NCBI GenBank assembly: GCA_004298045.1
Contig: SCRM01000019.1
Location: 186,001-250,000, forward strand
Direction of reading: 5' to 3'
From: Rhodanobacter sp.
GTDB lineage: Bacteria; Pseudomonadota; Gammaproteobacteria; Xanthomonadales; Rhodanobacteraceae
Length of the DNA stretch: 64,000 nucleotides
Both the position numbers and the translations under genes were made by a program. Positions 38,162 to 62,781 of the stretch are shown one piece after another. Below the pieces are notes generated by a model. That model had not been told where the DNA came from. It worked only from the letters and a program-made list of their open reading frames with translations, and made no database searches. Position 1 is the first letter of the stretch. Each line of letters starts with the position of its first letter.

Positions 38162-38199
38162 GATGTTTCTCCTTTCGATGTGTGGGGGTGGTTCGGGGA

Positions 38200-39888: not shown

Positions 39889-39904
39889 ATACCCCTAGGG
39901 GTGT
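39889..39904. promoter_or_regulatory. candidate CsoR-family operator (site 1)
   Basis: ATACCCCTAGGGGTGT in the divergent PrpD / psiE-dsrE intergenic region; matches sites 2 and 3. Confidence 0.55.
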
Positions 39905-40210
39905 GTGATACCTTCGAAACGTACGCGTGCTGCGCTTCCCGCGCAGTCTCGGCTGCGGTCAGCTCCGAAGGGGGGGCTTTGGCCTCGAACCACCAGATAC
40001 ATTGGTATGCCTACGCGGCCATCCGTGACCGCGAAACCGCGCTGACGCCGCCGTCATCGGCGGTCACCGGGCATGCGCGCGCCGACGTGCCGCAACCCAC
40101 CGGCCGCCGCCATATCGCGCCGGCTTTCCGCCTCGGAATCCGTGCCGTCGGTTACATGCTGCATGGCATGGGGCCGTATCGATTCGATCCGCAAGCCACG
40201 GAGAACACCG

Positions 40211-40639
40211 ATGCCAGAGCTCCCGGTTCCCGCCATCAAGCGCCACGGCCGGCACATGTTTGCCGCCATCGAATATGCCGGCCTGCTGCTGGTGCTGATG
40301 GCCACGGTGGTGGCCACGGCGCAGGAAGTGCGCTCGATGATGAACAGCGCCAGCGTGTCGGTGACCGACCTGCTGCTGCTCTTCATCTACCTCGAGATCG
40401 TGACCATGAGTGGCGTGTACTGGCGCACGGGCCGGCTGCCGGTGCGGATGCCGCTGTATGTCGCGATGGTCGCGCTGGCGCGGCACATGATGCTCGACTC
40501 CACCGAACTGACCTCGCTCGACACCCTCGCCGAGGCGGGGGCGATCCTGCTGCTGGGTGTCGCCGTGCTGCTGGTCCGGTACGGCCACACCCGCTATCCC
40601 TACCTCGACGAGAACGGCCATTCCCGCACCATCAGTTGA
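40211..40639 (+). CDS. phosphate-starvation-inducible PsiE-family membrane protein
   Basis: AIEYAGLLLVLMATVVA ... DLLLLFIYLEIVTMSGVYWRTGRLPVRMPLYVAMVALARHMML. Confidence 0.8.
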   Translation: MPELPVPAIKRHGRHMFAAIEYAGLLLVLMATVVATAQEVRSMMNSASVSVTDLLLLFIYLEIVTMSGVYWRTGRLPVRMPLYVAMVALARHMMLDSTELTSLDTLAEAGAILLLGVAVLLVRYGHTRYPYLDENGHSRTIS

Positions 40640-40707
40640 TGCGCGCATGACCATCCGCGTGCCGTAGCTGTTGCCGTACCACCTTTCGATTCCCGTGGAG
40701 AAATGCC

Positions 40708-41301
40708 ATGCACCATGCCCCATCCACCCTGGCCCTGCTCGGACTGCTTGCCCTCGGCCTGTCGTTCGGCGCCGCCGCGGCCAGCACCGCGACGACGGCC
40801 ACCGCCGACAACGCCAACACGGCCGGCTGGCACACCGGCGTCATCACCAGCGGCGGGGAAATCCACCCGGTACCCAAGGGCTCGTCGTACATGCCCGATC
40901 CGAAGGCCACCTACAAGGTGGTGTTCGCCATGACCCGCGGCAGCGACGACCCGACCAAGGTCAGTCCCGCCGTCGAACGCGTGGCGCGTGCGGTCAACCT
41001 GTTCACCGCGGCCGGGGTACCGCTGAAGAACCTGCACTTTGTCGCGATCGCCTATGGCGCGGCGACGCCGGCGATGCTCGACGACAAGCATTACGAGGAT
41101 ACGTATCTGGTGCACAACCCGAACCTGCCGATCATCCGTGAGCTGCGCAAGGCCGGGGTGGACATCGTGGTGTGCGGCCAAGCGGTGGCGGAGTACAAAT
41201 ACCACTTCGACTGGATGGACCACGACGTTCCCGTGGCCCTGTCCGGCGTGACCACGATCACCGAGATGCAACTCAAGGGTTACGCCTTGATGCAACTGTG
41301 A
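40708..41301 (+). CDS. periplasmic DsrE-family protein
   Basis: Signal peptide; YKVVFAMTRGSDDPTKVSPAVERVARAVNLFTAAGVPLKNLHFVAIAYGAATPAML...VVCGQAVAEY. Confidence 0.85.
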   Translation: MHHAPSTLALLGLLALGLSFGAAAASTATTATADNANTAGWHTGVITSGGEIHPVPKGSSYMPDPKATYKVVFAMTRGSDDPTKVSPAVERVARAVNLFTAAGVPLKNLHFVAIAYGAATPAMLDDKHYEDTYLVHNPNLPIIRELRKAGVDIVVCGQAVAEYKYHFDWMDHDVPVALSGVTTITEMQLKGYALMQL

Positions 41302-41381
41302 GCAGGCAACGGCTCCGACACTGATCCGCGCCCGCCTGCCCGGCGTGGCGTACGCGGAGGTTCTTCAGGGAAGCGCGCTCG

Positions 41382-42050
41382 ATGCATATTCGCAACCGGC
41401 GGTTGATCTTCGGCGCATCGATGGTGCTGTGCACCGCCGCAGCGGGCGCCGCCACGCCCGACGCCGCGCACATTGCCGCGGCGGGAAACGGGCGCGGCGC
41501 GCCGCCCTGTGCAAGCTGCCACGGCGTTGCCGGCGATGGCCAGGCCGCCGCCGGCTTTCCGCGCCTGGCGCACCTCGATGCCGGTTACCTGCAGCGCCAG
41601 CTCGACAATTTCGCCGACGGCTCGCGCGCCAACGCGACGATGGCACCGATCGCGAAATCGCTCACCGCGGCCGAGCGCCAAGCGTTGGCCGCCTATTACG
41701 CCGGCATGCCGCTGCCTGCCGCGACGCAGCCGCCAGTCGCCGACAGCGGCAGCGATCGCGCCCGCGGCGAACAACTGGCGACCCGCGGCAGGTGGAGCCA
41801 GCAGGTTCCCGGTTGCGTGCAGTGCCACGGTCCGCAAGGCGTGGGAGTCGGCGCGCATTTCCCGCCGTTGGCCGGCCAGTCGGCGCTCTACATCGCCAAC
41901 CAGTTGCGTGCCTGGCGCAGCGGCACGCGCAGGAACGATCCGCTGGGGTTGATGCAGCACGTCGCGTCCGCGCTCGACGACGCGGACATCCGGGCCGTGT
42001 CCACGTGGTTTGCCGCACAACCGGCAGGCGGCAAGGGAGGCAAGCCATGA
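41382..42050 (+). CDS. diheme cytochrome c (c4-like)
   Basis: CASCHGVAGDGQAAAGFPRLAHLDAGYLQRQL and CVQCHGPQGVGVGAHFPPLAGQSALYIANQL. Confidence 0.9.
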   Translation: MHIRNRRLIFGASMVLCTAAAGAATPDAAHIAAAGNGRGAPPCASCHGVAGDGQAAAGFPRLAHLDAGYLQRQLDNFADGSRANATMAPIAKSLTAAERQALAAYYAGMPLPAATQPPVADSGSDRARGEQLATRGRWSQQVPGCVQCHGPQGVGVGAHFPPLAGQSALYIANQLRAWRSGTRRNDPLGLMQHVASALDDADIRAVSTWFAAQPAGGKGGKP

Positions 42051-42988
42051 AACCCGCACCCCGCATCGCGCTCATCGCGCTGGCCATGGTGATCGTGCCG
42101 TGGGCGGCGCGCTCCAGTGGACAGGCATCCCGCACGACCGCCGCCCCCGCCGCAACCAAGCCGGCAGCTGCGGCGCTGCCCGCCTTCACCCCACCACCCG
42201 ACTCGGCGATCCCGGACGATCCGTTCGGGGCCTTGGTACGCGAAGGCCGCGACATTTTCCTGGACACGCCCGGCCACGCCAAACCCTACGTCGGCAACGG
42301 CCTCAGTTGCAGCAATTGCCACCTCGATGCCGGGCGGCGCGCCAACTCGGCGCCGATGTGGGCGGCCTATGTGCGCTACCCCCGCTATCGCGCCAAGAAC
42401 GGCAAAGTCAACACCTTTGCCGACCGCCTGCGCGGGTGCTTCCAGTTCAGCATGAACGGCAAGGCGCCGGCGGCGGACAGCGACGTCATCCGGGCGCTGA
42501 CCGCGTATTCGTACTGGCTGGCGACCGGTGCGCCCACCGGCAAGAACCTCGCCGGCTACGGCTACCCCAAGGAAGGCTTCACGTCGCCCCTGCCGCCCAG
42601 CTATGCGCGCGGGCAACAGGTCTACGCGAGCCACTGCGCGCTGTGCCACGGAACGAACGGCGAGGGCCAGCAGGTGGCCGGCAAGTTCGTGTTCCCGCCG
42701 CTGTGGGGGCCGCAGTCGTTCAACTGGGGCGCCGGGATGGGCAACATCGACAACGCGGCCGCGTTCATCAAGGCCAACATGCCCTTCAGTCGCGGCGACA
42801 CGTTGACCGACCAGGACGCCTGGGACGTGGCGATGTTCATGGACGCGCACGAGCGTCCACAGGATCCGCGCTTCAAGGACAGCGTCGCCGCCACCCGCAA
42901 GCAGCACCACGACAGCAAGTGGTCGCTCTACGGCACCGAAGTCAACGGCCGCCTGGTCGGAACCGGCACGCCGCCGCGCGGCCGATAA
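42047..42988 (+). CDS. tsdA: thiosulfate dehydrogenase-like diheme cytochrome (TsdA)
   Basis: GLSCSNCHLDAGRRANSAPMWAAYVRYPRY, DRLRGCFQFSMNGKAP (Cys heme-ligand context), CALCHGTNGEGQ. Confidence 0.87.
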   Translation: MKPAPRIALIALAMVIVPWAARSSGQASRTTAAPAATKPAAAALPAFTPPPDSAIPDDPFGALVREGRDIFLDTPGHAKPYVGNGLSCSNCHLDAGRRANSAPMWAAYVRYPRYRAKNGKVNTFADRLRGCFQFSMNGKAPAADSDVIRALTAYSYWLATGAPTGKNLAGYGYPKEGFTSPLPPSYARGQQVYASHCALCHGTNGEGQQVAGKFVFPPLWGPQSFNWGAGMGNIDNAAAFIKANMPFSRGDTLTDQDAWDVAMFMDAHERPQDPRFKDSVAATRKQHHDSKWSLYGTEVNGRLVGTGTPPRGR

Positions 42989-43080
42989 TGGCACGCGGCG
43001 GCACGGGAACACGCCGCGCCGCGGCGCCCGCACGCCAGTCTGCCGCGATGGATCGCAGCAGACGTGCCGTGTCGAACCGG

Positions 43081-44397
43081 CTACTTCCAGTCGTACTGGA
43101 TGCCCAACGAGTCCTCGCGCATCGAGATCCTCTCGGTGCCGGCAGGCATGCCACCCATGAACACCGGCAGGATCGACGCGCCGGAGACGCTGTGCGAGAA
43201 CGCGTGCATGTAGGCCATGGTCAGCTCACCGCCCGAGGCCAGCTTGTGCGTAAAGCCGAGCGTCGCGTGGTTGGTGACCACGCCCGGCGCGAGGATGTTG
43301 AAGGTGACGTCGCTGCCGCGGATCGGGTTGTCGGTGTGGTTGTAGCCGGCCCGCCAGGTCCAGCGCTCCGCACCCGCCCACTCCACGCCGAGTTTCCACA
43401 CGTTGACGTCCTGCCAGCCGAACCCGGGCCCATTGGTCGATCCAAGCTGCGTCGGCCGGAGGCTGGTGTCGCCCACCGAATGCACGTCGCTGTAGTTGAT
43501 GCGCATGTAGTCGAGCGCCAGCGTCACGTCATGCCATGCCGTCCAGGCCACGCCGGCACCGTAGTTGCTCGGGATATCGAAGCGGCCACGTTCGGCAAAC
43601 AGGCCCGAGTAATCGGAGAAGCGGCTCATGTGCACCTTCATCGCGTAGGTTGCGCCCACCGCGAAGTCGTCGCCCACCCGCGCGTAGTAACCGAGGCGCA
43701 GGCCGCCGCCGGTCGAGGAGTCACGCCCGTTGTCGGTGACCTTGGCGGGATCGGCGGACAACCCCGGCGTGCCCGCGAACGCCTGCAGGCCGAATGCCTT
43801 GAAGCTCTGGTACACGAACAGCGGCGTGACGCCGATCGACTGGCGTGGCGTGAACGCGTAGGCGACGGTCGGCGCGACGACCAGTTGCATCAGGTCGACG
43901 CCGAGGCTGCCCTGCCCGCACAGCATGTTGGCGGGCCCCCTGCCGCAGTTGAAGTTGGCGCCGGGGTAATCGGTATCCATGCCGCCGTTGCCGTACACCG
44001 TGACGCCCAGCGCAAGCTGGTCGCTCAGCATGTGGTTGTAGCCGAACTCGGGAATGCCGAACCAGTCACGGTTGCTCGACACCGAACCATCGAGTCCGGG
44101 GCCGAGGCCGCTGCGCGAGGCGGAACGCCGCGGAGTGAACGCGGTGAGCCCCAGCTCGAGCCGGTTGCCGGCGAACGCCATCGTCGCCGGATTGTTGGCC
44201 CCGCCGAAGGCGTTGTCGGTGAATGCCAGCGAAGCCCCGCCGCGACCCGATGCCTGCATGCCATAGCCATGGGTGAAATAGCCGTCCGTGGCACACGCCC
44301 CGGAAGCCACGCCCGCCAGTGCAAGCAGCCATATGCTGCGGCGAAAGGTCGCGCGATGGACGGCTGAACGGAAACGTGCGGAATACTGCGATTGCAT
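43081..44397 (-). CDS. FadL-family outer membrane transport protein
   Basis: ATDGYFTHGYGMQASGRGGASLAFTDNAFGGANNPATMAFAGNRLELGLTAFTP; beta-barrel C-term ending in WK. Confidence 0.82.
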   Translation of the reverse strand: MQSQYSARFRSAVHRATFRRSIWLLALAGVASGACATDGYFTHGYGMQASGRGGASLAFTDNAFGGANNPATMAFAGNRLELGLTAFTPRRSASRSGLGPGLDGSVSSNRDWFGIPEFGYNHMLSDQLALGVTVYGNGGMDTDYPGANFNCGRGPANMLCGQGSLGVDLMQLVVAPTVAYAFTPRQSIGVTPLFVYQSFKAFGLQAFAGTPGLSADPAKVTDNGRDSSTGGGLRLGYYARVGDDFAVGATYAMKVHMSRFSDYSGLFAERGRFDIPSNYGAGVAWTAWHDVTLALDYMRINYSDVHSVGDTSLRPTQLGSTNGPGFGWQDVNVWKLGVEWAGAERWTWRAGYNHTDNPIRGSDVTFNILAPGVVTNHATLGFTHKLASGGELTMAYMHAFSHSVSGASILPVFMGGMPAGTERISMREDSLGIQYDWK

Positions 44398-44683
44398 GAT
44401 GGTGTCCCCTTCATCGATTCGTGGAACGGCGCGAAAACATTGGCCCTGCAGGCCTGCAAGCCCTGCTGCGACGTGCGATACCCGCGGCCGTTTCGCCCCT
44501 GCCACGGTTTTTCCCCTCCCGCATGGCGCCCCCTGCACCATCGGGTTCAACGCATCACGCCACCCGGTGCGGACGCCCTTCAGGTTCGGGCACCAGTACC
44601 GACTCGCTCCGTGAGAGAATGTGACGTCGATTCGTACGCACTGGCGTGCGGACCATCCATCGGAAATCAGGTTGGAGGCATCC

Positions 44684-44953
44684 ATGCAGGAGATCAGCGA
44701 AAGCCGCAAGAAGGTCGCGCTGCGTCTTGCGCGCGTCGAAGGCCAACTGCGCGGCATCAAGGGGCTGGTCGAAGGCGGTGCCGAGTGCGAAGACATCGCG
44801 ACGCAGATGACTGCGGCGCGGCGTGCGCTGGATCGCGCCTTCTACGAGATGCTGGCGTGCAGCCTGCTGCGCCACGTCGACGAGGAACCGAGTCCGGCGG
44901 CCGTCCGCGAGTCGACCAACGAACTCATGCGCCTGCTGGTGAAATTCGCCTGA
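44684..44953 (+). CDS. CsoR/DUF156-family transcriptional regulator
   Basis: KKVALRLARVEGQLRGIKGLVEGGAECEDIATQMTAARRALDRAFYEMLACSLLRHV. Confidence 0.9.
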   Translation: MQEISESRKKVALRLARVEGQLRGIKGLVEGGAECEDIATQMTAARRALDRAFYEMLACSLLRHVDEEPSPAAVRESTNELMRLLVKFA

Positions 44954-44961
44954 GCTGCGCT

Positions 44962-45948
44962 TCATGGCTTGCCCTGCTTGAGCCACTCCTGCTCCATCTG
45001 CAGGTAGGTCGAGTTGGCGTTCAGGCGGTTGGCGGCATCGAAGGTCGGCACGCCCTTGAAGCGTGACCAGTCGGTGTGTGCATAGGCGTCGTCGAAGCTC
45101 TCCCAATTGCGCACCGCCTTGCCCATCTGCTCGCGCAGGTAGGCGATGTAGTCGCGGGTGAATTGCGCATCCTGGCGCGGATCGGTGGACGCCGGGCCAT
45201 GCCCCGGCACCATCACGCGCGGATGCAAGGCCAGCACCTCGTCGATGGCGACGAGCCAGTGCCGCGTGTCCGAATCCGGGCCGATGAACGGCGCGCGGCC
45301 GGCATAGATCACGTCGCCGGAGTACAGCACGTTGTCGGGTTCGACCAGCAGGCCGAGGTCTTCGGGTGAATGCGCCGGCCCGAAACGATGCAGCGACAGC
45401 GTGACCGCACCCATCTTGAACGACTCGTTGTGGTCGATCCAGCGGTCGGGCAACGGCGGCTTGAAATCGGCGCCGAGGTACTTGCCGATCAGCGCGCGGC
45501 GTTCGGTGACCCGCTGCAACGCCGCCTCGGAGCCGAGATAGGCCTTGGCGCGCACGTCCGCCCACACTTTGGCGCCCACCGCGCGCAGCGCCGGTATGCC
45601 GTAGAAATGGTCGGCGTGGTAGTGGCTGATGACCACCAGCTTGATCGGTTGCGAGGTGCGCTGGCGGATCTCCGCAATCAGCCGGTCGGCGAGCGACGGC
45701 GAGCCCAGCGAATCGAACACGATCACGCCATCACCGGTGATCACGAAACCGGCGTTGGCAATGAAGCCCTGGTTCTCGCGCGTCGCCGCATCCAGCCGGC
45801 CTTCCACGTAGTACGTGTGCGGGCCGACCTGGTGCACCGGCATGTCGATGTCGGTGGGCGCCCAGTCGCCCGCGTGCACCGGCAGGACCGCAGCCACCAG
45901 CAAGGCGAGGCACCATGCCATGAGCCTGCCGGGGCTGCGCCGCGTCAT
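44962..45948 (-). CDS. MBL-fold metallohydrolase (SoxH-like)
   Basis: Signal peptide; VVISHYHADHFYGIPAL, SGDVIYAGRAPFIG, VMVPGHGPAS. Confidence 0.85.
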   Translation of the reverse strand: MTRRSPGRLMAWCLALLVAAVLPVHAGDWAPTDIDMPVHQVGPHTYYVEGRLDAATRENQGFIANAGFVITGDGVIVFDSLGSPSLADRLIAEIRQRTSQPIKLVVISHYHADHFYGIPALRAVGAKVWADVRAKAYLGSEAALQRVTERRALIGKYLGADFKPPLPDRWIDHNESFKMGAVTLSLHRFGPAHSPEDLGLLVEPDNVLYSGDVIYAGRAPFIGPDSDTRHWLVAIDEVLALHPRVMVPGHGPASTDPRQDAQFTRDYIAYLREQMGKAVRNWESFDDAYAHTDWSRFKGVPTFDAANRLNANSTYLQMEQEWLKQGKP

Positions 45949-47666
45949 GCGCCGACGATTCCCGGATTGCCGGTTTCGCCGATCAGGCGCGGCTGTTCCA
46001 GCGTGGGCGGGGCCAGCGTGCGATGCGCGGCCAGGTACTGCTCGACGACCTCCCACACCGGTGCGCCACCCGGGTCGCTCACGACGGGCGCCCAGCCCGC
46101 CACCTTGTACTTCTTGCCGGCATCCATCGGCACGCCGGCCAGGCGCATGTCGCTGATGCGCTGGCCACTGGCCGCGCCGGGCGTGCAGGCGTAGCTCATC
46201 CCGCCCACGCGCACCATGTCGCCGCCCTGCTGGTAGTACGGATCGGGGTTGAACAGGTTGTCGCAGACATCCTCGAGGACAGCCTTGAGCTCGGCGCCGG
46301 TGTACTCGTTGACGGTCGCGGTCGGATAGGTGATGGCGGTCTGGTCGAGCAGGCATTCGCGCGTGATCGACTCGCCCGGCAGCAGCGTGGTGCCCCAGCG
46401 GAAGCCGGGCGACAACGCGATCTGCGCCCCTTTCACGTCGCGCAGGGCATCAAGGATGACCTGGTCGAAGCTGCCGTTGAAATTGCCGCGGCGGTACAGC
46501 AGCCCCTCGCTCACCGCGAGTTGCTCTTCCAGCTTGGCGCGGTAGGGCGCGCGGTGGCGATCGATCAGCGACTGCATCGCCGGGTCGGGTTCCAGCAGGT
46601 TCGCGAACACCGGCAGCAGGCGGTAGTGGTAGCCGCGCACCTTGCCGCCTCGCACGTCGAAATCCAGCACGCCGAGGAACTTGCCGTTGCTGCCGGCGTT
46701 GGTCACCAGCGTCTGCCCGCCGGCGTTCTTCACCGCCACCGGTCGCGGCACGCCGTCGTGGGTGTGACCACCGAGGATCGCGTCGAGCCCCTGCACCTTC
46801 GAGGCGAGCTTCAGGTCGACGTCCATGCCGTTGTGCGACAGCAGCACCACCACGACCGCACCGGCCTTGCGCACCTTGTCGATCGTGCGCTGCAGGCGGT
46901 CGTCCTGGATGCCGAAGGTCAGGCCATCGACGAAGCGGCCGGGGTGCGCGATCGGCACGTACGGGAACGCCTGGCCGATGACGGCGACGCTGACGCCGTT
47001 CACTTCGCGCAGGCTGTAGTCCGCAAACACCGGATCGCCGAAATCCGCAGTGCGGATGTTCTGCGCAAGAAACTCGAGCTTGCCCTTGAACGGCCCGTTG
47101 ACGACCTCGCGCACCCGGTCGGCGCCGTAGGTGAACTCCCAGTGCCCGGTCATGATGTCGACGCCGAGCGCGAGCTGGGCGTCGACCATGTCCTGGCCGC
47201 GACTCCACAGCGCGAGCCCGGTGCCCTGCCAGGTGTCGCCGCCATCCAGCAGCAGCGAACCGGGGCGCTCGGCGCGCAGGCGCTTCACCAGCGTCGCGAG
47301 ATGGGCGAACCCGCCCAGCTTTCCGTAGCGCCTGGCCGCGGCAACGAAATCGACGCAACTGAGGGCATGCGCCTCGGGCGTGTTGGCCGCGATGCCGTAG
47401 TACTTGAGAAAGTGCTCGCCCACGAGGTGGGGCGGCCGGCCGCGCGCCGCGCCGACACCGATGTTTTGCGAGGGCTCCCGGAAATACACCGGCTGCAACT
47501 GCGCGTGAGTATCGGTGAAATGCAGCAGCCCGACGTTGCCGTATCTGGGCACGTCGTACAGCGACTTGGCGTCGCGGTCGGCCGCAAACGCCAACTTGCC
47601 GAGCGGCATACCGGCCACGGACGCCGCCGCCAGCACGCGCAGGAACTCACGCCGGGACAGGTTCAT
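45945..47666 (-). CDS. soxB: thiosulfohydrolase SoxB
   Basis: Tat signal RREFLRVLAAASVAG; VGLLHFTDTHAQLQPVYFREPS, LLDGGDTWQGTGLALWSRGQDMV, VLLSHNGMDVDLKLA, LGGHTHDGVP. Confidence 0.95.
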   Translation of the reverse strand: MNLSRREFLRVLAAASVAGMPLGKLAFAADRDAKSLYDVPRYGNVGLLHFTDTHAQLQPVYFREPSQNIGVGAARGRPPHLVGEHFLKYYGIAANTPEAHALSCVDFVAAARRYGKLGGFAHLATLVKRLRAERPGSLLLDGGDTWQGTGLALWSRGQDMVDAQLALGVDIMTGHWEFTYGADRVREVVNGPFKGKLEFLAQNIRTADFGDPVFADYSLREVNGVSVAVIGQAFPYVPIAHPGRFVDGLTFGIQDDRLQRTIDKVRKAGAVVVVLLSHNGMDVDLKLASKVQGLDAILGGHTHDGVPRPVAVKNAGGQTLVTNAGSNGKFLGVLDFDVRGGKVRGYHYRLLPVFANLLEPDPAMQSLIDRHRAPYRAKLEEQLAVSEGLLYRRGNFNGSFDQVILDALRDVKGAQIALSPGFRWGTTLLPGESITRECLLDQTAITYPTATVNEYTGAELKAVLEDVCDNLFNPDPYYQQGGDMVRVGGMSYACTPGAASGQRISDMRLAGVPMDAGKKYKVAGWAPVVSDPGGAPVWEVVEQYLAAHRTLAPPTLEQPRLIGETGNPGIVGA

Positions 47667-47673
47667 CGCGCGC

Positions 47674-47994
47674 TCAACCCACGGCAGCTTCGTCGGTGCG
47701 GGTCTCGCCGGCCGAGTCGTTCCAGGTGACGGTGATCTTGTCGCCCGACTTGCCGCCCTTGAACCGCAGCGTGAGGAACGGGTTCTTGGAAACCGCCGGG
47801 CCCCAGTCGCCGGTCATCACCGTGCGACCGTTGCAGGCGACCGTGACGGTCTTGATGTAATGCGGCGTCGTGGCGAGCTTCAGCTTGCCCGCGGCATCGG
47901 TGGTGAGGCCGGTCGCCTCGGGGTGCGACATCAGCATTTTCACTTCCACCACATCGCCGTTGACGGTGGCGCGAATCTTGGTCGGATCTGGCAT
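47674..47994 (-). CDS. soxZ: thiosulfate oxidation carrier complex protein SoxZ
   Basis: MPDPTKIRATVNGDVVEVKMLMSHPEATGLTTDAAGKL...VTWNDSAGETRTDEAAV. Confidence 0.93.
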   Translation of the reverse strand: MPDPTKIRATVNGDVVEVKMLMSHPEATGLTTDAAGKLKLATTPHYIKTVTVACNGRTVMTGDWGPAVSKNPFLTLRFKGGKSGDKITVTWNDSAGETRTDEAAVG

Positions 47995-48022
47995 GACGCA
48001 TGTCCTCGTGAATGGGTCGTTC

Positions 48023-48517
48023 TCAACCGCCGCAGCCGCCGAGCGTCACCTTGACCAGGCGCTCGGCGTAGAAGAAGCCCTGGTCGGTCTGCACCAGTGC
48101 CGTGACCTTGGCGGTCTGTGCCAGCTTCATGCGCAGCGACACGTAGGGTTCGGTGCCATCCGGGATGTGGAACGCCGCGGTCAGTGCATTGGGATTCGTC
48201 GCGCAGGCAATCGCGATCAGCTTGGTGTTCGGCAGGTTGCTCTGCACCTCGACCGGCACCACCGCGCCGTTCTCCGCGATGTCGGGAGCGGTGAAGTCGA
48301 TGTCCTTGGACAACTGCGCCTGCGTGCCACCCAGTGCCTTCACCAGCTCGTCGATGGTGTGCGCCTCGAACTCCTTGCGGTTGTCGCCCGGCGCGAGCGC
48401 ATGCAGCACGTCGTCCGCGGCCCATGCCCGGGTCGGTATCCAGCCGCTGCCAACCAGCAGCGCCAAAGCGCTGCCGCCGCCTGCCAGTTTCAGAAACTCC
48501 CGCCTGTTCGATTTCAT
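48023..48517 (-). CDS. soxY: thiosulfate oxidation carrier protein SoxY
   Basis: Tat signal RREFLKLAGGGSALAL; C-terminal GGCGG carrier motif (VKVTLGGCGG). Confidence 0.95.
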   Translation of the reverse strand: MKSNRREFLKLAGGGSALALLVGSGWIPTRAWAADDVLHALAPGDNRKEFEAHTIDELVKALGGTQAQLSKDIDFTAPDIAENGAVVPVEVQSNLPNTKLIAIACATNPNALTAAFHIPDGTEPYVSLRMKLAQTAKVTALVQTDQGFFYAERLVKVTLGGCGG

Positions 48518-48576
48518 TGCAACGCCCTCGGCTGATGGTTGGCTCTACCCGCACGCATGCCTGTCATGCGTGCGGT

Positions 48577-49569: not shown

Positions 49570-50896
49570 TGTGCACCTTGCCTTCGGCATCGACCTGCCA
49601 GGTCTGGATGCCGTTGTTGTGGTACGGCGAGTGGGTGCCTCGCACTTCGCGCAGTTGCGCCATGCTCGGCTGCACGTAGCCGGTCTCGTCGACGCAGCGG
49701 CTCTGCAGCAGGGCCGGGCTGCCGTCCCAGTGCCAGTCGGCGCGGAAGCGCGTGAGGGCCTTGGTCAGCACCGGGCCCTGCAGCTCCGCCGTGCGCCAGT
49801 TGCGGCCGCCGTCGGTGGAGACGTCGACGCGCTTGATCCGGCCGCGCCCCGACCAGGCGAGGCCGCGGATCTGGTAGTACCCGCCCTTGTCCAGCAACTG
49901 CTGTTCGCCCGAGGGCGAGGTGATGACCGACTTGGCCTCCTGGATCCAGGTGTACTGGCGTGTGCGGCCATCGGGCATCAGGTCGCTGTACTGCAACGAT
50001 TCCTCGCGCGTGTTCCACGGCTGGTCGCCGACCTTGATCCGGCGCAGCCACTTCACGTTGGAGACACCCTGCACGCCCGGCACCAGCAGCCGCACCGGAT
50101 AGCCCTGTTCGCGCCGCAGCATCTCGCCGTTCTGGCCGTACGCCACCAGCACGTCGTCCAGTGCGAATTCGATCGGGATGGTGCGCGTGAGGCCCGAGCC
50201 GTCCGCACCCTCGGCAAGGATGAATTTCGCCCGCTTGCGGTCGAAACCGACGTCGTCCAGCAGGGTCGACAACGGCACGCCGGTCCACTCCGAGCAGCTC
50301 AGCATGCCATGCGTATACTGCACGGTCGGTACCGCCGGGGTCGCCCAATTCATCCCGGTGTTCGCGCCGCATTCAATGAAGTGGATCCGCGAGACCGAGG
50401 GAAATCGCAGCAGGTCCTCCATCGTGTAGATCTTGGCCTCGCGCACCAGCCCGTGGACCATCAGGCGGTGGTCGTAGGGATTGATGTCGGCGCGGCCGTT
50501 GTGATTGCGCTCGAAGTGCAGGCCGTTGGGCGTGATGATGCCGAACTGGTTCTGCAGCGGCGAGAAGGCTACCGAGGACTGCGTGGTCGTGGTCAGGCCC
50601 GGGCTGGAGCGCCGGATGTTGGTGCGCTCGAACGGCGAAGGCACGCCATACGGGTCGGCGCCGACCGGTTTGCCCAGATCCTGCGACCACGGCGGCACGT
50701 TGGGCGGCAGGTTCTTCGGATCGGGCACGTACTCGCCGGCATGCGCCAGCGTCGGCAGCACCGCCGCCGCGGCCGCCGTCGCACCCAGGCCGAGGCCGAT
50801 ACGACGCAGCACCTCGCGCCGCGAACGACCTTCCGTCGACAGGAAATTCTCCCGCGCCTCGATCAGGCGTCCTGGCCGGGTTTCATGCGCACTCAT
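49556..50896 (-). CDS. soxC: SoxC molybdopterin subunit of sulfane dehydrogenase
   Basis: RREVLRRIGLGLGATAAAAAV; TPNGLHFERNHNG, IHFIECGANTGMNW, SCSEWTGVPLSTLL. Confidence 0.94.
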   Translation of the reverse strand: MSAHETRPGRLIEARENFLSTEGRSRREVLRRIGLGLGATAAAAAVLPTLAHAGEYVPDPKNLPPNVPPWSQDLGKPVGADPYGVPSPFERTNIRRSSPGLTTTTQSSVAFSPLQNQFGIITPNGLHFERNHNGRADINPYDHRLMVHGLVREAKIYTMEDLLRFPSVSRIHFIECGANTGMNWATPAVPTVQYTHGMLSCSEWTGVPLSTLLDDVGFDRKRAKFILAEGADGSGLTRTIPIEFALDDVLVAYGQNGEMLRREQGYPVRLLVPGVQGVSNVKWLRRIKVGDQPWNTREESLQYSDLMPDGRTRQYTWIQEAKSVITSPSGEQQLLDKGGYYQIRGLAWSGRGRIKRVDVSTDGGRNWRTAELQGPVLTKALTRFRADWHWDGSPALLQSRCVDETGYVQPSMAQLREVRGTHSPYHNNGIQTWQVDAEGKVHNVQV

Positions 50897-50938
50897 CGAC
50901 GGCTCCGTGGTTGCACGCTGCAATATCGGCAGCCCCGC

Positions 50939-51913
50939 TCACTGCAAACCCACGACCGGCCGCTTTTCGGTGGTCCACTCGTACATCGACCCGTCGTACA
51001 CGGCGACACCGGGGTTCTGCATGATTTCGTGCAGCACGAACCACGCGCCCGAGGCGAGATGACCGGTGTTGCAGTAGGTGATCGTCGGCTTGTGCGAGTT
51101 GACGCCCAGATGCTTGAACACGGTCGCGTAGTCGGCGCGGCTGAGGAAACGCATGCTGCCGTCGCGCTTCACCGCGCGCACCTCCGGCGGAAAGTCCTCG
51201 GCCCCTTTGATGTGGCCCGCGGCCAGCACGATCGGCTTGCGCTCCAGCCCGATGTAGAACGGCAACGGCCGCGCATCGACCAGTTGCCGGCCCTGCGCGG
51301 CGGCCTTGGCGACGTCGGTGCTGTCGGCGAACAGCTTGCGGTTCTCGGCCTTCGCGACCCAGTTGCCGGCAGCGGGTTTGGCAGCGTCGGTGCTGACCGG
51401 ATATCCCGCTGCGAGCCACGCCGCGGTGCCGCCATCGAGGATCGCCAGGTTGTTGTCGCCATACACCTTCATCGACCAGTACACCCGCGCCGCCATGTCG
51501 AGGTCACCCGCGGAGGTGCCATCGGAAACGATCACGGTCGGCCGTCCATCCTGCACGCCGACGCTGCGCATCAGGGCCTGGAAATCCGCCTGGGTCGGCA
51601 GCATCCACTTGATCTCGCGCCCATCGATCATGCGCGACGTGCGCACCTTGGCGAAATCGAGCAGCAACGCGCCGGGAACATGTCCGCCAAAACCGGCAAG
51701 CGTCTTCTTGCCGCTCTCGGTCGTGAACGTCGGTGCCTTGGTGAACGACGCCGTATCCTCGCGCACATCGAGCACATTCACCTCGGCTTGATGCTGCTGC
51801 AGCCACGCCGGCGTCACCAGCGGGCCGGGTACTACGACGCCCGAACCGAACGCCATGCCCGACACCAGCGCTGCGGCGATGGCCAACAGCGCACTGGCAA
51901 AGAAACGCTTCAT
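50939..51913 (-). CDS. periplasmic rhodanese/thiosulfate sulfurtransferase
   Basis: Signal peptide; VNVLDVREDTASFTKAP, GGTAAWLAAGYPVS, ITYCNTGHLASGAWFVLHEI. Confidence 0.9.
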   Translation of the reverse strand: MKRFFASALLAIAAALVSGMAFGSGVVVPGPLVTPAWLQQHQAEVNVLDVREDTASFTKAPTFTTESGKKTLAGFGGHVPGALLLDFAKVRTSRMIDGREIKWMLPTQADFQALMRSVGVQDGRPTVIVSDGTSAGDLDMAARVYWSMKVYGDNNLAILDGGTAAWLAAGYPVSTDAAKPAAGNWVAKAENRKLFADSTDVAKAAAQGRQLVDARPLPFYIGLERKPIVLAAGHIKGAEDFPPEVRAVKRDGSMRFLSRADYATVFKHLGVNSHKPTITYCNTGHLASGAWFVLHEIMQNPGVAVYDGSMYEWTTEKRPVVGLQ

Positions 51914-51935
51914 GTCATTCTCCTGGTAAACGCCT

Positions 51936-52649
51936 TCACGGCGACGCGGCATCGATCGCCGCCACCTGATCAGTCAGTGAAACCCTGCAGCAACTCAATA
52001 CGTACACGTGGCGATCGTCGAGCACGCCTTCGCCGCCACGCGCAGCGACCCGCTGGTCGCGGCGCGCCAGCAGCAGGCGGATCTGCGGCGCAAACAGCAC
52101 CAGCAGGTCGTGCAGCCAGCGCTCGAGCGGCGCCGCCGCCGCGGGTTGCGCCGCCACGATCTGCGCGAACTTTCGCCCCATGGCGGGCGCACTCCGCCAC
52201 GCTTCGCCGGTCACCCAGCGATTGGTAGTGAACAGGCGCACGGGCAGTCCGCGCGCGTCGACACCGATGCCGACCAGATGCACGAAGTCCGGCGCGGACC
52301 GGGCGCGTCCGCGCGGCAGGCGCACGAACACGTGGAAGTGCCCATGCTCCCCACGCGCACCGCGGCCGTGCGAGTGGTAGTAGAAGAACCATCCGCCCGG
52401 ACGCGTTGCCTGTCCGTCGTCCGCAGCGTAGTGCTGCCATGCCTGCGGAACCCCGGAACCCAACGCATCGCCGAGCGGGGTAACGCCGCGCGCCACGCAA
52501 TCGTCCAACAAACGGATCAGGTCGCGCGCGGTGCGCCGCGTGGAGTGCAGGTGGTGGACACCCCCAGCCAGCAGCCCGCGTTGCAGCACCGAGCGCGACA
52601 CCCGCAGGTGCGCGCGATCAACGCCGACGCTGGCTGCCCTGGGCTTCAA
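51936..52649 (-). CDS. conserved hypothetical protein of the sox operon (TTG start overlapping upstream stop, TTGA)
   Basis: RLLDDCVARGVTPLGDALGSGVPQAWQHYAADDGQATRPGGWFFYYHSHGRGARGEHGHFHVFVRLP...; family not identified. Confidence 0.7.
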   Translation of the reverse strand: MKPRAASVGVDRAHLRVSRSVLQRGLLAGGVHHLHSTRRTARDLIRLLDDCVARGVTPLGDALGSGVPQAWQHYAADDGQATRPGGWFFYYHSHGRGARGEHGHFHVFVRLPRGRARSAPDFVHLVGIGVDARGLPVRLFTTNRWVTGEAWRSAPAMGRKFAQIVAAQPAAAAPLERWLHDLLVLFAPQIRLLLARRDQRVAARGGEGVLDDRHVYVLSCCRVSLTDQVAAIDAASP

Positions 52650-52930
52650 CCGGCGTGCCCCTGCGGCGCGCACGGGCTGGCCATCTTTGCCTTCTGCGGC
52701 GCACAGGGGCTGGCTGCCGCCTTCGGCGCACACGGGTTGGCCGCTGCCTTGGCCCCCTTCGGTGCGCACGGATTGGCCGCTGCGGGACTTGCCGCAGTGG
52801 CGCTGCCGGCAGCCGCGGCTTGCGGCGCGGTGGCAGTCGGCGACGTCGGACTGCCGCAGGCGCTCAGGCCGCCCAGCGACAGCAGGGCCACGGACAACGC
52901 GGCAGTCAGCGGTACGGATTTCTGTTTCAT
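52646..52930 (-). CDS. small lipoprotein with four [N/S]PCAP[K/Q] repeats
   Basis: Lipobox LSAC; NPCAPKGAKAAANPCAPKAAASPCAPQKAKMASPCAPQGHAG. Confidence 0.8.
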   Translation of the reverse strand: MKQKSVPLTAALSVALLSLGGLSACGSPTSPTATAPQAAAAGSATAASPAAANPCAPKGAKAAANPCAPKAAASPCAPQKAKMASPCAPQGHAG

Positions 52931-52946
52931 GTCGGACTCCTCGGGT

Positions 52947-53525
52947 TCAATCCGCGCAACTGATCTGGTTGGAGGTGGCGATGCGACGGCTCAGCCAGCC
53001 CACCAGCACGGCGCCGCCCACCAGCAACGCCAGCACCAGCCAGTCGGGGATGTGCAGCAGCTCGCCGACGGTCTGGGCCTGCGGGCCCGGCGCCGCGGTG
53101 AGGAACGGCTCGATGTTGCCGAACACGCCGGCGAACATCACGACGCCGATCACCAGGCCCACGAAAAACACGATGCCGTCGATGCGTCCCGCGGTCGCGC
53201 CCACCACCGAGGTGCCGGGGCAGTAGCCGCCCACCGCCATGCCGGCGCCGATCAGCGCGCCGCCCAGCAGCGTCGCCCACACGAAGGTGGTCGGCACGAA
53301 CAGGTCGGACCACTTCACCAGCCCGAACAACTGCATCAGGTACAGGCCGCCGGCGGCGACGATGATCGCGGTGAACATCACGTTGAACACGGTCCAGTCC
53401 TTGAGGCGCAACTGCGCGCTCAGGCGGCAACCGTTGCCGAGCCCCCCGCGCTGCAGCACGAACCCGAACAGGACACCGAACACGATCCCCGAGAGCGGGG
53501 TCGTCCATCCCAATGGAAAGGTCAT
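52947..53525 (-). CDS. YeeE/YedE-family (thiosulfate-transport-type) membrane protein
   Basis: FGFVLQRGGLGNGCRLSAQLRLKDW ... GMAVGGYCPGTSVVGATAGRIDG. Confidence 0.87.
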   Translation of the reverse strand: MTFPLGWTTPLSGIVFGVLFGFVLQRGGLGNGCRLSAQLRLKDWTVFNVMFTAIIVAAGGLYLMQLFGLVKWSDLFVPTTFVWATLLGGALIGAGMAVGGYCPGTSVVGATAGRIDGIVFFVGLVIGVVMFAGVFGNIEPFLTAAPGPQAQTVGELLHIPDWLVLALLVGGAVLVGWLSRRIATSNQISCAD

Positions 53526-54043
53526 TGCCATAGCCTCCGCGTGGCCATCCCGACGATGATTCCGGTCAGGAAAAAGCCGATCAGGAATACGAAGCCGGCC
53601 GTCGCCAGCACCGCCCCGCCCGACAGGCCGAGACCACTGGTGCACCCGGCCGATACGCGCGCGCCAAAGCCCGACAGGATGCCGCCGCCCAGCGCAAGAG
53701 CGAGGCGCCCCAGCGTGCGTGCACGCGGCGGCCCCTCGACGCGCAGGCGCAGGCGGCCCGACCACCAAGCGGCAAGCAGCGCGCCGATGCCCATGCCGAT
53801 CACTTCCCACACGATCCAGGAGTTCAGCGGATTGTTGCCACCCGCCACCATCGGGCCCAGATAGCCATTGACCGTGGTGGCCGCCGGCGCGATGGCTTTG
53901 GATGCGGCCGCCGCCAGATCGGTCGGTGCACCGGAGGCGCCGAGGCCGTGGCCGGTCGCCAAAAACGTCACCATCAACACCAGGCCGAGCGCCACGCCGG
54001 CAACGTGCGCTTTCCAGATCGGCCGCGTCTTCATCAACAGCAT
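53522..54043 (-). CDS. YeeE/YedE-family (thiosulfate-transport-type) membrane protein
   Basis: GGGILSGFGARVSAGCTSGLGLSGGAVLATAGFVFLIGFF. Confidence 0.87.
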   Translation of the reverse strand: MLLMKTRPIWKAHVAGVALGLVLMVTFLATGHGLGASGAPTDLAAAASKAIAPAATTVNGYLGPMVAGGNNPLNSWIVWEVIGMGIGALLAAWWSGRLRLRVEGPPRARTLGRLALALGGGILSGFGARVSAGCTSGLGLSGGAVLATAGFVFLIGFFLTGIIVGMATRRLWQ

Positions 54044-54070
54044 CGTGATGTACCTCTCCTCGAACTGCAG

Positions 54071-54086
54071 ATACCCGGTACGGTAT
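54071..54086. promoter_or_regulatory. candidate CsoR-family operator (site 2)
   Basis: ATACCCGGTACGGTAT, 27 bp upstream of the first gene of the yeeE...sox operon, in the divergent fccB intergenic region. Confidence 0.6.
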
Positions 54087-54410
54087 CGATGCTGAACGCT
54101 AATCTCGTCGCGTTGCGGAATGCACGCTGTGGTGCAACACGACCGTGAATCTCGCGGTTCCGTCACGTGCGGCCGGCTCATGCGGAGGCGTCCCCGGGAA
54201 TCCGCACGCGCAGCCTTCACGCACTGCCGGACACCATCCGTACCACACGGCGTATGGTATGCGCCGTTGCCGGTGCGTCCGGCAACCGACACCAGCAGGG
54301 GAGCTCCACCATTACCGACGGCGCGACGCCAGCACACGCCTTTTGCGGCTGAGAATTACCGGGCGATACGGCACGCAGCCGTCGGTTCGCATCCCATGAG
54401 GAGACCAGGC

Positions 54411-55790
54411 ATGACCCACGAAATCGATCGTCGGCACTTCCTGAAGATGAGCGGCACAGTGTTGGCGGCCGCACCCGCCGTGCTTGCCGCCGGGCCCGCG
54501 GCACTCGCCGCCGGCGTGGCGCAACCCGCCGGCGGCAAGCAGGGGGCACCGTTCGTTTCCACCCACCGCATGCTCGACCTGCCAAAGGCCAGGGGGCCAC
54601 GGCTGGTGATCATCGGCGGTGGCACCTCCGGACTCACCATCGCCAAGCACGCGAAGAAGGCGTACCCGAAGTTCGACGTGGTGCTGGTCGAGAAGCGCTG
54701 CATGTATTCGTCGTGCTTTGCCAGCAACCTGTGGTATCCCGGCATCGTCAACCTCGAGTTCCTTGCCGACCACAGCTTTCTCGACGCCGCCCACAACGGC
54801 GGCTACATCTACGTCAACGCGACCTGCATCGGGCTGGATCGCGCCAGCCGCACCGTCGCCACCAACGAGGGCGACATCAAGTACGACTTCCTCGTCGTCG
54901 CACCCGGCATTTCCTACGACTACGACAAGATCGGTGTGCACGACATCGACGCCAAGGTCGCGCTGCGGCAGACCTACCCCGGCGGTTTCATCTGCCCGAC
55001 CGAGCACGTCACCATCCATCGCAAGGTGCACCAGTTCGAAGGTGGCGTGTTCATCCAGACCGTGCCCAGCGGCAACTACCGCTGCCTGCCCGCGCCGTAC
55101 GAGCGCGCCTGCCTGATCGCCTCGGTCATCAAGCACAACAAGCTCAAGGGCAAGGTCGTGATCCTGGATGCCAACCCCGAGATCACGATCAAGGCGCCGG
55201 GTTTCCACGCCGCCTTCGACGAGTTGTACAAGGGCATCATCGAGTGGCACCCGACCGCGGCGGTCACCGGCGTGGACGTCGCCGGGCGCACCGTCCACAC
55301 CGAGTTCGACAGCTACAAGTTCGACGACGCGGCGATCTACCCCAACGTCCGCGCGGCCACGCTGATCGAGGAACTGGACCTGATGGCGCCGCCCACCAAG
55401 AGCAACCAGAAGGAAGCGAACATCGACATCCGCTTCTACAACCTGATCGGCGACCAGCGCGTCTACGTGACCGGCGACTCGCGGCCGATGCCGTACTCCA
55501 AGAGCGGCAACACCTCCAACAGCGAAGGCCACTACGTCGCGAAGGTGCTGGCCGCGCGCGCACAGGGCAAGGACATCGCGTGGACTTCGCCGCAGACACT
55601 GTGCTACTCGATGGTCGACGCCTTTCCGAAGCAGGCGATCTGGGTCGACACCTACTACGGCTACGACGCCAAGAAGGATGCGATCACCGGTTTCAAGGAC
55701 ACCAAGGTCGACAACAAGCGCAGCGAGGCCAACGGCACCGCCTATCTGGAATGGGCGCGCGGGCTGTACCGCGACATGTTCAAGGCCTGA
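54411..55790 (+). CDS. flavocytochrome c sulfide dehydrogenase flavoprotein-type FAD protein (FccB/SoxF-like)
   Basis: Tat signal RRHFLKMSGTVLAAAPAVLA; RLVIIGGGTSGLTIAKHAKK, VLVEKRCMYSSCFASNLWYPG, FLVVAPGISYDYDKIG. Confidence 0.87.
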   Translation: MTHEIDRRHFLKMSGTVLAAAPAVLAAGPAALAAGVAQPAGGKQGAPFVSTHRMLDLPKARGPRLVIIGGGTSGLTIAKHAKKAYPKFDVVLVEKRCMYSSCFASNLWYPGIVNLEFLADHSFLDAAHNGGYIYVNATCIGLDRASRTVATNEGDIKYDFLVVAPGISYDYDKIGVHDIDAKVALRQTYPGGFICPTEHVTIHRKVHQFEGGVFIQTVPSGNYRCLPAPYERACLIASVIKHNKLKGKVVILDANPEITIKAPGFHAAFDELYKGIIEWHPTAAVTGVDVAGRTVHTEFDSYKFDDAAIYPNVRAATLIEELDLMAPPTKSNQKEANIDIRFYNLIGDQRVYVTGDSRPMPYSKSGNTSNSEGHYVAKVLAARAQGKDIAWTSPQTLCYSMVDAFPKQAIWVDTYYGYDAKKDAITGFKDTKVDNKRSEANGTAYLEWARGLYRDMFKA

Positions 55791-55840
55791 ATGCGGAGGG
55801 CGGCCGGGCCGCGCAGGCGCCCCGGCCGGAACCCATCCCC

Positions 55841-56545: not shown

Positions 56546-56569
56546 CGGTCCGGCCGCGGCGCTGGCGGG

Positions 56570-57535
56570 TCAACGCCCCGGCGGCTGGAAACCGTACTTC
56601 GCATAGATTGCACGTGCCTGCGCGCCCGCCATGAACTTCACGAAATCGCGCGCAGCCTCGGCGTGCGGGGCCGCCTTCATCACCGCCGCGGTATAGGTGG
56701 CCACACTGTTCTGCGCGGCCGGGATCGCCACGGTTTCCACCGGATGATGCAGGACCTGCTGCTGGAACCACGCCTCGGTCGACCACACCGGCGCGGCGTC
56801 GGCCTCTCCCTGCAATACACGCAGCGGCGACTGGCGGTGGTGGATGCGGGTCAGGAACGTGGTGCCGGCCGCGACCTTGGTCTGCATGACCGCCGTCACC
56901 AGCGCCTCGCCGCCGGCCTTGCGGTAGCTGGCCTCGATCTGGCGCGCGATGCCTTCCCACTTGGGGTTGGGCATGCTGACGCGCACGTCCGCGCGGCCGA
57001 GGTCCGCCAGCCCGCGCACATGTTTCGGATTGCCCGCCGGCACCAGGATCGCCAACCCGTTGCGCGCATAGTCGAACGTGTCGGCGAACCAGCCATGCTC
57101 CTCCTGCAGGTGCGCGATCGCCCCCTTGCCGGCCGTATAGACGTCCGGCTGCAAGGCGATCTTCAGATTGCCCATCACCAGCGAACCGGTCTGGATCTGC
57201 TGCGCGAGGATGCCCGGCGGCAGCGTTTCCACGTAGATGCGCTGGTACTGCGGATACGCCTGCCGGAATGCCGTCACCAGATCGTGCACCACCATGAACT
57301 GGTTGCCGGCGAAGAACACCACCAACTGGGGATCGACGATATCGCCGTGCAGGTCGGCAATCGCGTCCACCGGCGCCACCTGGAAATGCACGCCGCCGGC
57401 GGGCGGCGGATTCCACGGCGGCAGGTAGTCCTGTGTCGACGAAGCCGGTGCGGCGACGGCCGCCGCAGCCACCAGCCACAGCGGACATGCCGCCAACAGG
57501 CAGCGGCGCCATGTGCGCCCAAGGCTACGTTGCAT
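56570..57535 (-). CDS. periplasmic substrate-binding protein (molybdate/sulfate-type fold suggested)
   Basis: Signal peptide; LVVFFAGNQFMVVHDLVTAFRQAYPQYQRIYVETLPPGILAQQI...KWEGIARQIEASYRKAGG. Confidence 0.75.
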   Translation of the reverse strand: MQRSLGRTWRRCLLAACPLWLVAAAAVAAPASSTQDYLPPWNPPPAGGVHFQVAPVDAIADLHGDIVDPQLVVFFAGNQFMVVHDLVTAFRQAYPQYQRIYVETLPPGILAQQIQTGSLVMGNLKIALQPDVYTAGKGAIAHLQEEHGWFADTFDYARNGLAILVPAGNPKHVRGLADLGRADVRVSMPNPKWEGIARQIEASYRKAGGEALVTAVMQTKVAAGTTFLTRIHHRQSPLRVLQGEADAAPVWSTEAWFQQQVLHHPVETVAIPAAQNSVATYTAAVMKAAPHAEAARDFVKFMAGAQARAIYAKYGFQPPGR

Positions 57536-57574
57536 CCCACGCCTCCTCTCGCGCGATCTGCGCGGCACCCGGGT

Positions 57575-58147
57575 TTACAGCGGCATCAGCGCGTAGCCCT
57601 GCTGCTGCAGCTCGGTGATGGTGGTCAACGCCGACAACGCGACCGGCACCGCTGGATCCACCCACTCGAAGCGATAGTGGTGCTCCATCACCGCCTGCCC
57701 GCACACCGCCACCTCGATGCCGTGCTGGTGCAGCTCGCGGATCACCGGCAGGTTGGGATTGGCGACATGGTGCAACTGCTGGTAGTGCGCGTCGTCGAGC
57801 GCGATTTCCGTCGCCGGTCCGTAGGCGATCGCCACGAACTTCAGGTGATCGAGCGGGACGCCGGCGCTGGCGTACAGGTTGACCGTGCGCGCGACGCGTT
57901 CCAGCGCCGGGCTCACCTCGGTCGCGTCCTTGCCGGGGTGGGTCAAGGCAAAGACCACCTTGTAGGTCGCCGCGCGATCCGGCATGAATACGGCATTCTT
58001 CGGCACCGGGTGGATCTTGCCGGCGCTGGCGATGACCCCCGCATGCCAGCCGGCATCGCTGGCCGACGCCGCCATGGCGGAACCCGCAAAGACGAATCCC
58101 AGTGCGGCCAGCGCGAGTGAAGCGAACACGCGATCGATTACATGCAT
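57575..58147 (-). CDS. periplasmic DsrE-family protein (paralog of 40708-41301)
   Basis: WHAGVIASAGKIHPVPKNAVFMPDRAATYKVVFALTHPGKDATEVSPALERVARTVNLYASAGVPLDHLKFVAIAYGPAT; same architecture as the left copy. Confidence 0.85.
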   Translation of the reverse strand: MHVIDRVFASLALAALGFVFAGSAMAASASDAGWHAGVIASAGKIHPVPKNAVFMPDRAATYKVVFALTHPGKDATEVSPALERVARTVNLYASAGVPLDHLKFVAIAYGPATEIALDDAHYQQLHHVANPNLPVIRELHQHGIEVAVCGQAVMEHHYRFEWVDPAVPVALSALTTITELQQQGYALMPL

Positions 58148-58328
58148 GGGCCTGCCTCCATGTTGATAATCCACCTGGTTACCCCGAACACCCCCGCGTG
58201 CGCCGAGTCGTCATCGTGCGCGTCGGTTGCGGCGCCCCACCCCTGCGCCGGCGAAACCGCTGTCGGGTGCCATGCCGGCGGCGGCGCCAAACCGGCATTC
58301 CGTCGCAGGCGCCCACGCCAAACCGCAG

Positions 58329-59348
58329 TCAGCCGCCAATATACGACATCTCGATTTTCTTGCGCGCCGCGATTTCCGGCGTCGCCTGGGTGCGCAATTC
58401 CGAATAGCGGTCACGGCGCCGGCCCCACACGCCGGCGATCTTGTCCATGACCGCCTCGTCGTCGGCGCCGCTGCGCAGCAGGTCGCGCAGGCTGGTGCCC
58501 CCGCCGGCGAACAGGCAGGTGTACAGCACGCCTTCCGCCGACAGCCGCGCGCGGGTGCACCCGCCGCAGAACGGCTGGGTGACCGAGGCGATCACCCCGA
58601 CCTCGCCCGCACCGTCCTTGTAGCGCCAGCGGTTGGCTACTTCGCCCGGATAGTTTGCCGGCACGCGCTCCAGCGGCCAGCGTGCATCGACGCGCTTGAT
58701 CACTTCGGCCGAGGGCACCACGTCCTGCATGCGCCAGCCGTTGGTGGTGCCGACGTCCATGAATTCGATGAAACGCAGGATGCAGCCGCTGCCGCGGAAA
58801 TGCTCCGCCATGTCCTCGATACACTGCTCGTTGGCGCCGCGCTTGAGCACCATGTTGATCTTGACCGGCGTGAGCCCCGCTGCGGCCGCGTTGTCGATCG
58901 CGTCCAGCACCTTGCCCACCGGGAACCCGACCCCGTTCATCGCCTTGAAGGTCGCGTCGTCGAGCGCATCGAGGCTGATGGTGATGCGCTGCAAGCCGGC
59001 CGCCTTCAACCGGCGTGCCTTGTCCGCGGTCAACAGCGAACCGTTGGTAGTCAGGCTGATGTCGGTGATGCCGGGGATCGGCGCCAGCAGCGCGACCAGC
59101 CGCTCGATGTCCTTGCGCACCAGCGGTTCGCCGCCGGTCAGGCGCAGCTTGCTGACGCCCAGCGCCGCGAACAAGCGCGCGAGCCGCACGATCTCCTCGA
59201 AACTCAGCAGGCTGGCGCGCGGCAGGAACGCGTGGTCGGCGCCGAACAGCTCCTTCGGCATGCAATAGGTGCAACGGAAGTTGCAGCGGTCGGTCACCGA
59301 GATGCGCAGGTCGCGCATCAACCGCCCCAGTGTGTCTCGCGTTTCCAC
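58329..59348 (-). CDS. moaA: GTP 3',8-cyclase
   Basis: [64 protein letters not shown]-terminal MSYIGG. Confidence 0.96.
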
Positions 59349-59374
59349 GCCTCACCCCCTTGTGCCCGGCCACT

Positions 59375-59390
59375 ATACCCATGAGGGTAT
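59375..59390. promoter_or_regulatory. candidate CsoR-family operator (site 3)
   Basis: ATACCC-ATGA-GGGTAT perfect-arm inverted repeat, 26 bp upstream of moaA ATG. Confidence 0.6.
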
Positions 59391-59701
59391 GCTATCCACC
59401 TTCGTCCACACCTGATCTGGAGCAGCCGCCGGTTCCACATCCACACCGTCGCAACCGGGGTTCCGCGATCCGGAACCACCGCAAGTCCTGAGCTAAGCTG
59501 CGACCCGAAGCCGGTGGCCCGATGTCAGCTGAAAACCGCGAGCCAGAGTCAGATGGCAACCAACACACCGTCACGCACTTCGCCACAAAACGTGTCGCCA
59601 AGATACCGGCCTGCCTTGCATGCTTCAGCGCGCCGCCCGGATCACACGCGTCCCGTGCGGTGGCACCCCGGGATCGAAACGTCCCACCTCGACAGCCGAA
59701 C

Positions 59702-62201: not shown

Positions 62202-62202
62202 C

Positions 62203-62718: not shown

Positions 62719-62781
62719 CCCATGGCCGTGGATCGGCATCGAGGATTCCGCACCCCCTCGTCACGCCACCGGGAAATCCGC

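Follow-up and report, generated by a model that had tools for sequence, protein, structure and literature searches.

A recurrent palindrome in a sulfur-oxidation and molybdenum-cofactor island of Rhodanobacter sp. is a probable operator of the island's own CsoR-family protein

Introduction

Control of sox genes has been described for few regulators. In Thermus thermophilus HB8, the CsoR-family protein TTHA1953 represses sox genes and a gene for sulfite oxidation, which its authors call the first such link (PMC10318464). As reviewed in the same publication, SoxR of Paracoccus and Pseudaminobacter, a member of the ArsR family, is a probable repressor of the sox promoter, and the reported targets of CstR are sulfide-detoxification genes, in organisms said to be without Sox (PMC10318464). 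The cysteines of Enterococcus faecalis CstR have been reported as C31/C62 (PMC9405070). Streptomyces lividans CsoR no longer bound its TAC-N9-GTA operator when carrying R57A or Q81A, and bound it much more weakly with R54A (PMC3902906).

The present analysis concerned a 64-kb stretch of DNA (C6:186001-250000; "the window") from a 3.26-Mb draft genome of Rhodanobacter sp. A first-pass annotation of this stretch had noted three similar palindromes in front of genes for sulfur oxidation and molybdenum-cofactor (Moco) synthesis, and had attributed them to a CsoR-like protein encoded among these genes. The closest named record to this regulator, P0001, came from R. thiooxydans LCS2 (92%; genome size 4.1 Mb). 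Genome-wide statements on the motif rest on pattern searches.

Results

Palindromic sites and genes of the island

The sites and genes discussed below, with their positions in the window, were as follows:

39889..39904, candidate operator 1, ATACCCCTAGGGGTGT, upstream of psiE-dsrE-cytochrome c-tsdA
40073..42988, + strand, psiE, dsrE, diheme cytochrome c and TsdA/SoxA-type cytochrome
44684..44953, + strand, regulator P0001, CsoR family (PF02583), 89 aa, with C35 and C59 and without H60 and C64
44962..54043, - strand, sox operon: two yeeE genes, a Cys-rich ORF, rhodanese, soxC, cytochrome (soxD-like), soxY, soxZ, soxB and a soxH-like metallohydrolase gene
54071..54086, candidate operator 2, ATACCCGGTACGGTAT, before yeeE, the first gene of the sox operon
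54240..54260, secondary overlapping dyad, GTACCACACGGCGTATGGTAT, upstream of fccB; absent from the first-pass list
54411..55790, + strand, fccB-like gene for a flavocytochrome c sulfide dehydrogenase flavoprotein (PF21706, PF09242)
56570..59348, - strand, moaA, a dsrE-like gene and a gene for a solute-binding protein
59375..59390, candidate operator 3, ATACCCATGAGGGTAT, before moaA, within the divergent moaA/moaC gap
59522..63693, + strand, divergent Moco genes: moaC/moaB fusion, moeA-like gene (named by inspection only), moaE and a gene for a WtpA-like solute-binding protein

All three palindromes of the first-pass annotation were found at the positions and with the sequences given there, and its distances of 27 bp to the yeeE start codon (ATG, 54043) and 26 bp to that of moaA (GTG, 59348) agreed with the sequence. 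Operator 1 lies about 170 bp upstream of the start of the psiE ORF (40073). The sox site had also been regarded as shared with the divergent fccB gene. This part of the proposal has to be corrected: some 325 bp separate the site from the probable start of fccB (about 54411), and fccB has an overlapping dyad of its own at 54240-54260, about 150 bp 5' of the gene. The R. thiooxydans counterpart of this dyad (L092:9940) was an exact ATAC-N8-GTAT, and a separate fccB site was located at L096:10093. Scans for sigma-70 consensus sequences at the three operator promoters gave no match, so that the overlap of operator and promoter rests on alignment by eye.

The moaA gene of the island is a second copy in this genome; the housekeeping moaA on C16 was without such a site. 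Matches of the moaE and WtpA-like products were below curated cut-offs. The island (40073-54043) yielded no SoxXA pair, and the diheme cytochrome and the TsdA/SoxA-type protein, whose match to the SoxA model was below cut-off, may take its place. Beside the island, positions 37331-39588 encode a ComA-like phosphosulfolactate synthase (below cut-off) and an MmgE/PrpD protein.

Rarity of the motif

With at most one mismatch, the pattern ATACCCNNNNSGGTRT gave eight matches in the window (both strands counted), versus 0.29 expected. Over the whole 3.26-Mb genome, ATACCCNNNNGGGTAT with at most one mismatch occurred at four places, three of which were the island promoter sites; the fourth (C15:4481) lay within an unrelated 654-aa ORF. 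The genome-wide scan suggested together with the original proposal thus placed all such sites, bar one intragenic match, at island promoters. The probability of finding at least three of four places in one 19.5-kb stretch was 8e-7, for a stretch that was chosen after the sites had been seen. When two mismatches were allowed, 38 places were found genome-wide, versus 4 for the reversed pattern; weaker matches are therefore common and constitute no evidence.

Conservation of the sites in relatives

In R. thiooxydans LCS2, sites with at most one mismatch occurred at exactly three places, in the same three promoters, while the reversed-pattern control gave none. The counterparts of operators 1 and 3 were ATACCCCCGGGGGTGT and ATACCCTAATGGGTAT, respectively. 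At both the psiE and the moaA site, all 12 arm columns were identical between the two genomes, with two of four and three of four spacer bases kept, respectively. The sox-promoter site was kept in all five genomes that encode a close relative of the regulator, and in a five-way alignment 11 of its 16 columns were invariant, versus 39 of 293 elsewhere. The moaA site was seen only in two related Rhodanobacter genomes. Conservation upstream of orthologs, which had been named as a test of the original proposal, was thereby confirmed for all three sites in one relative and for the sox site across five genomes.

Six perfect sites were found in the five regulator-encoding genomes, all at promoters of sox, moaA, dsrE-like or thioredoxin-like genes. 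They included those preceding a thioredoxin-like and a DsrE-like gene in the FW106-10 bin, where the regulator gene, too, had a site upstream. No perfect site was found in 11 congeners that lack the regulator; these genomes are also without SoxB, and absence of the motif is therefore confounded with absence of its targets. Among the one-mismatch sites outside sulfur loci that were inspected in regulator genomes, several were intra-ORF and were taken as chance occurrences, and one, in L095, lay about 340 bp before a sigma-factor-like ORF. In a wider search of six more distant genomes, soxC and yeeE had sites, but so did genes or promoters unrelated to sulfur, and no regulon is therefore claimed there.

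Link between motif and regulator

Using a matrix derived from the regulator promoters of relatives, the three sites ranked 1-3 in the 64-kb window. This test is partly circular, because the sites of the relatives were chosen for likeness. To remove this circularity, an unbiased search was run, independent of the sites in the window, in which every exact palindromic dyad with 4-base arms was counted in the 200-bp stretch 5' of the regulator gene of 30 more remote relatives. ATAC-N8-GTAT ranked first (19 of 30 regulator genes; none in control segments), followed by ATAC-N9-GTAT (9 of 30). The connection between regulator and motif, only inferred in the first-pass annotation, is thus supported by a motif found de novo at ortholog promoters.

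No conserved copy of the site was found before the regulator gene itself in this genome, R. thiooxydans, L026 or L027, and in the genome under study the regulator is, judging from its upstream region, not evidently self-regulated. Canonical CsoR genes of Firmicutes and Mollicutes (L062, L071, L076) were preceded, at no more than about 50 bp from the gene start, by a perfect ATACCCNNNNGGGTAT. The arms are therefore common to likely copper sensors as well, and the motif does not reveal the signal. In a Nevskiaceae bin, a perfect palindrome (L146:1501) lay about 70 bp before a gene resembling that for a high-potential iron-sulfur protein (named by inspection).

Features of the regulator P0001

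The PF02583 domain of P0001 scored above the curated cut-off, which places the protein in the CsoR/RcnR (DUF156) superfamily. Its structure model, which was of good confidence (pLDDT 89.6), showed a three-helix fold, and its nearest PDB match, by sequence as well as by fold, was CstR of Streptococcus pneumoniae (7mq1). R14, L15, R17 and Q41, which make up the RLXR motif and Gln of CsoR/RcnR DNA binding, were invariant in 34 proteins; in the alignment, S. lividans CsoR has R54, R57 and Q81 at the positions of R14, R17 and Q41. C35 and C59, 24 residues apart, were likewise invariant in these 34 proteins. Both H60 and C64 of the copper ligand set C35-H60-C64 were absent from all 34, whereas 17 of 18 outgroup CsoR-type loci had both. 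Residue 64 was His in P0001 and the four proteins nearest to it, and E, G, N, D, P or A in the other members of the clade. The His60 that accompanies Cys35 in FrmR/RcnR is Ser in P0001, and matches to the FrmR and RcnR models were far below cut-off. As in CstR, P0001 has no His60 metal ligand and a sulfur-gene neighbourhood, but its conserved cysteines lack the 29-residue separation of the C31/C60 type.

In the phylogenetic tree, the 34 C35/C59 proteins formed one clade (99/97), and CstR sat on a long branch whose position was not fixed. Genes of the clade stand beside sox genes in several lineages, and elsewhere beside rhodanese, DsrE2, TauE or metallohydrolase genes. In two Panacagrimonas loci (L034 and L037), the regulator gene is near a modABC cluster that includes a ModE-like gene, and near TauE, a metallohydrolase gene and a BLH/DUF442 phosphatase-like gene, which makes these loci a second case of a molybdenum neighbour of the regulator gene; no operator was found before modA in either. 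SoxH and the regulator were also encoded on a contig labelled Klebsiella pneumoniae (L056), which was close to Nevskiaceae-like sequences and probably stems from a mis-labelled bin.

Discussion

The sequence comparisons point to the palindrome as the likely operator of the island's own CsoR-family protein, a predicted CstR-like thiol repressor of sox, fccB, psiE-dsrE-tsdA and the island moaA. That the three sites are landing sites of this repressor is very likely, given that related bacteria carry the site at the corresponding genes and distant relatives carry it before the gene of the repressor itself. We infer binding, repression, a persulfide signal and a cross-link along the following lines. 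A pair of tetramers of the reduced repressor would read the TAC/GTA arms via R14, R17 and Q41. Bound on or next to the core promoter, it would block transcription of the targets named above, sox from yeeE on; repression is favoured by the short distance, 26-27 bp, from site to start codon at yeeE and moaA. Per- or polysulfide arising during oxidation of reduced sulfur would react with C35 and C59, cross-link protomers and free the DNA, upon which sulfur oxidation would be switched on together with the supply of cofactor to its molybdenum enzyme, SoxC.

Two alternatives retain the regulator and its regulon and differ in the signal. The less improbable, though still unlikely, is a simple redox switch that works by disulfide formation and has no specific persulfide signal, as proposed for TTHA1953, which loses DNA upon disulfide formation and showed no response to NaHS (PMC10318464). 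P0001 likewise has two cysteines and no standard metal site, but its closest solved relative is a persulfide sensor, and some members of its clade sit with rhodanese, DsrE2, TauE or metallohydrolase genes. Cu(I), mentioned in the first-pass annotation as a possible signal, would have to be bound by C35, C59 and H64 instead of a C-H-C site. Fold and palindrome do match those of copper CsoR, and H64 is found in P0001 and its four nearest relatives. With H60 and C64 of the three-residue CsoR copper site replaced, residue 64 variable in the rest of the clade, and sulfur rather than copper genes as neighbours, this part of the earlier proposal appears weak and a copper signal improbable.

Other alternatives disconnect the palindrome from P0001. 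The genome contains two CsoR-family genes, the second coding for an FrmR/RcnR-like paralogue on contig 7, and TAC/GTA arms are common to operators of the family; the sites could thus be bound by another protein, such as this paralogue, with a different role for the island regulator. Discovery of the motif de novo at promoters of P0001 orthologs, the different dyad (GTACTATACCCAGGTAC) in the paralogue's own promoter, and the count of zero perfect sites in the 11 regulator-free congeners make such an assignment quite improbable. That three chance palindromes were picked by eye is more improbable still: the motif was indeed noticed after the fact, in a window with many weak matches, but its genome-wide exclusivity, cross-species conservation and recovery in an independent motif search contradict this explanation. 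The preferred reading remains a CstR-like thiol repressor encoded within its target island.

On a wider scale, the chances appear about even that the P0001 clade represents previously unnamed beta- and gammaproteobacterial CsoR-family thiol sensors (C35/C59), with a cross-link geometry unlike that of CstR and ATAC-N8-GTAT control of lithotrophic sulfur oxidation, to which the Rhodanobacter regulon would add a dedicated second molybdenum-cofactor pathway. Such a regulon suggests that a sulfur signal sets metal-cofactor supply to the molybdenum enzyme of the pathway. The shifted second cysteine raises the question how much displacement of a thiol switch a single fold tolerates when the DNA site hardly changes. 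With a candidate regulator, its operator and its targets now defined in proteobacteria that are in culture, R. thiooxydans among them, these proposals are testable at once.

Comparison with known systems

No proteobacterial counterpart was found in the literature covered, which takes in few subscription papers. SoxR is unrelated to P0001 in family and fold. S. lividans CsoR shares the DNA-reading RLXR and Gln residues; its operator, TAC-N9-GTA with C/G tracts, resembles the TAC-N8-GTA found here (PMC3902906). It differs in being a copper sensor with C-H-C ligands, two of which are absent from P0001, and copper-efflux targets. CstR (Staphylococcus aureus, E. faecalis, S. pneumoniae 7mq1; YrkD of Bacillus licheniformis) resembles P0001 in its two thiols, lack of a CsoR metal site and sulfur-gene neighbourhood, whereas the second cysteine of the S. 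pneumoniae protein is at +29 (7mq1 sequence) and that of P0001 at +24.

TTHA1953 shares with P0001 the CsoR family, two cysteines and control of sox, which for P0001 is predicted. Its cysteines are 29 residues apart (C39/C68) instead of 24, and its operator, TACNNTACNNNNGTANNGTA, is without a GC tract and differs from the island operators, among which only the fccB dyad comes near it. The TTHA1953 gene is far from its targets, whereas the P0001 gene lies inside its target island, and the validated targets of TTHA1953 include no Moco gene, whereas moaA is among the predicted targets of P0001. CsoR-family control of sox is thus not new as a concept, Thermus being the only such case found; the present system departs from it in cysteine spacing and operator, in the position of the regulator gene within the island, and in having moaA (in two related genomes) among the predicted targets.
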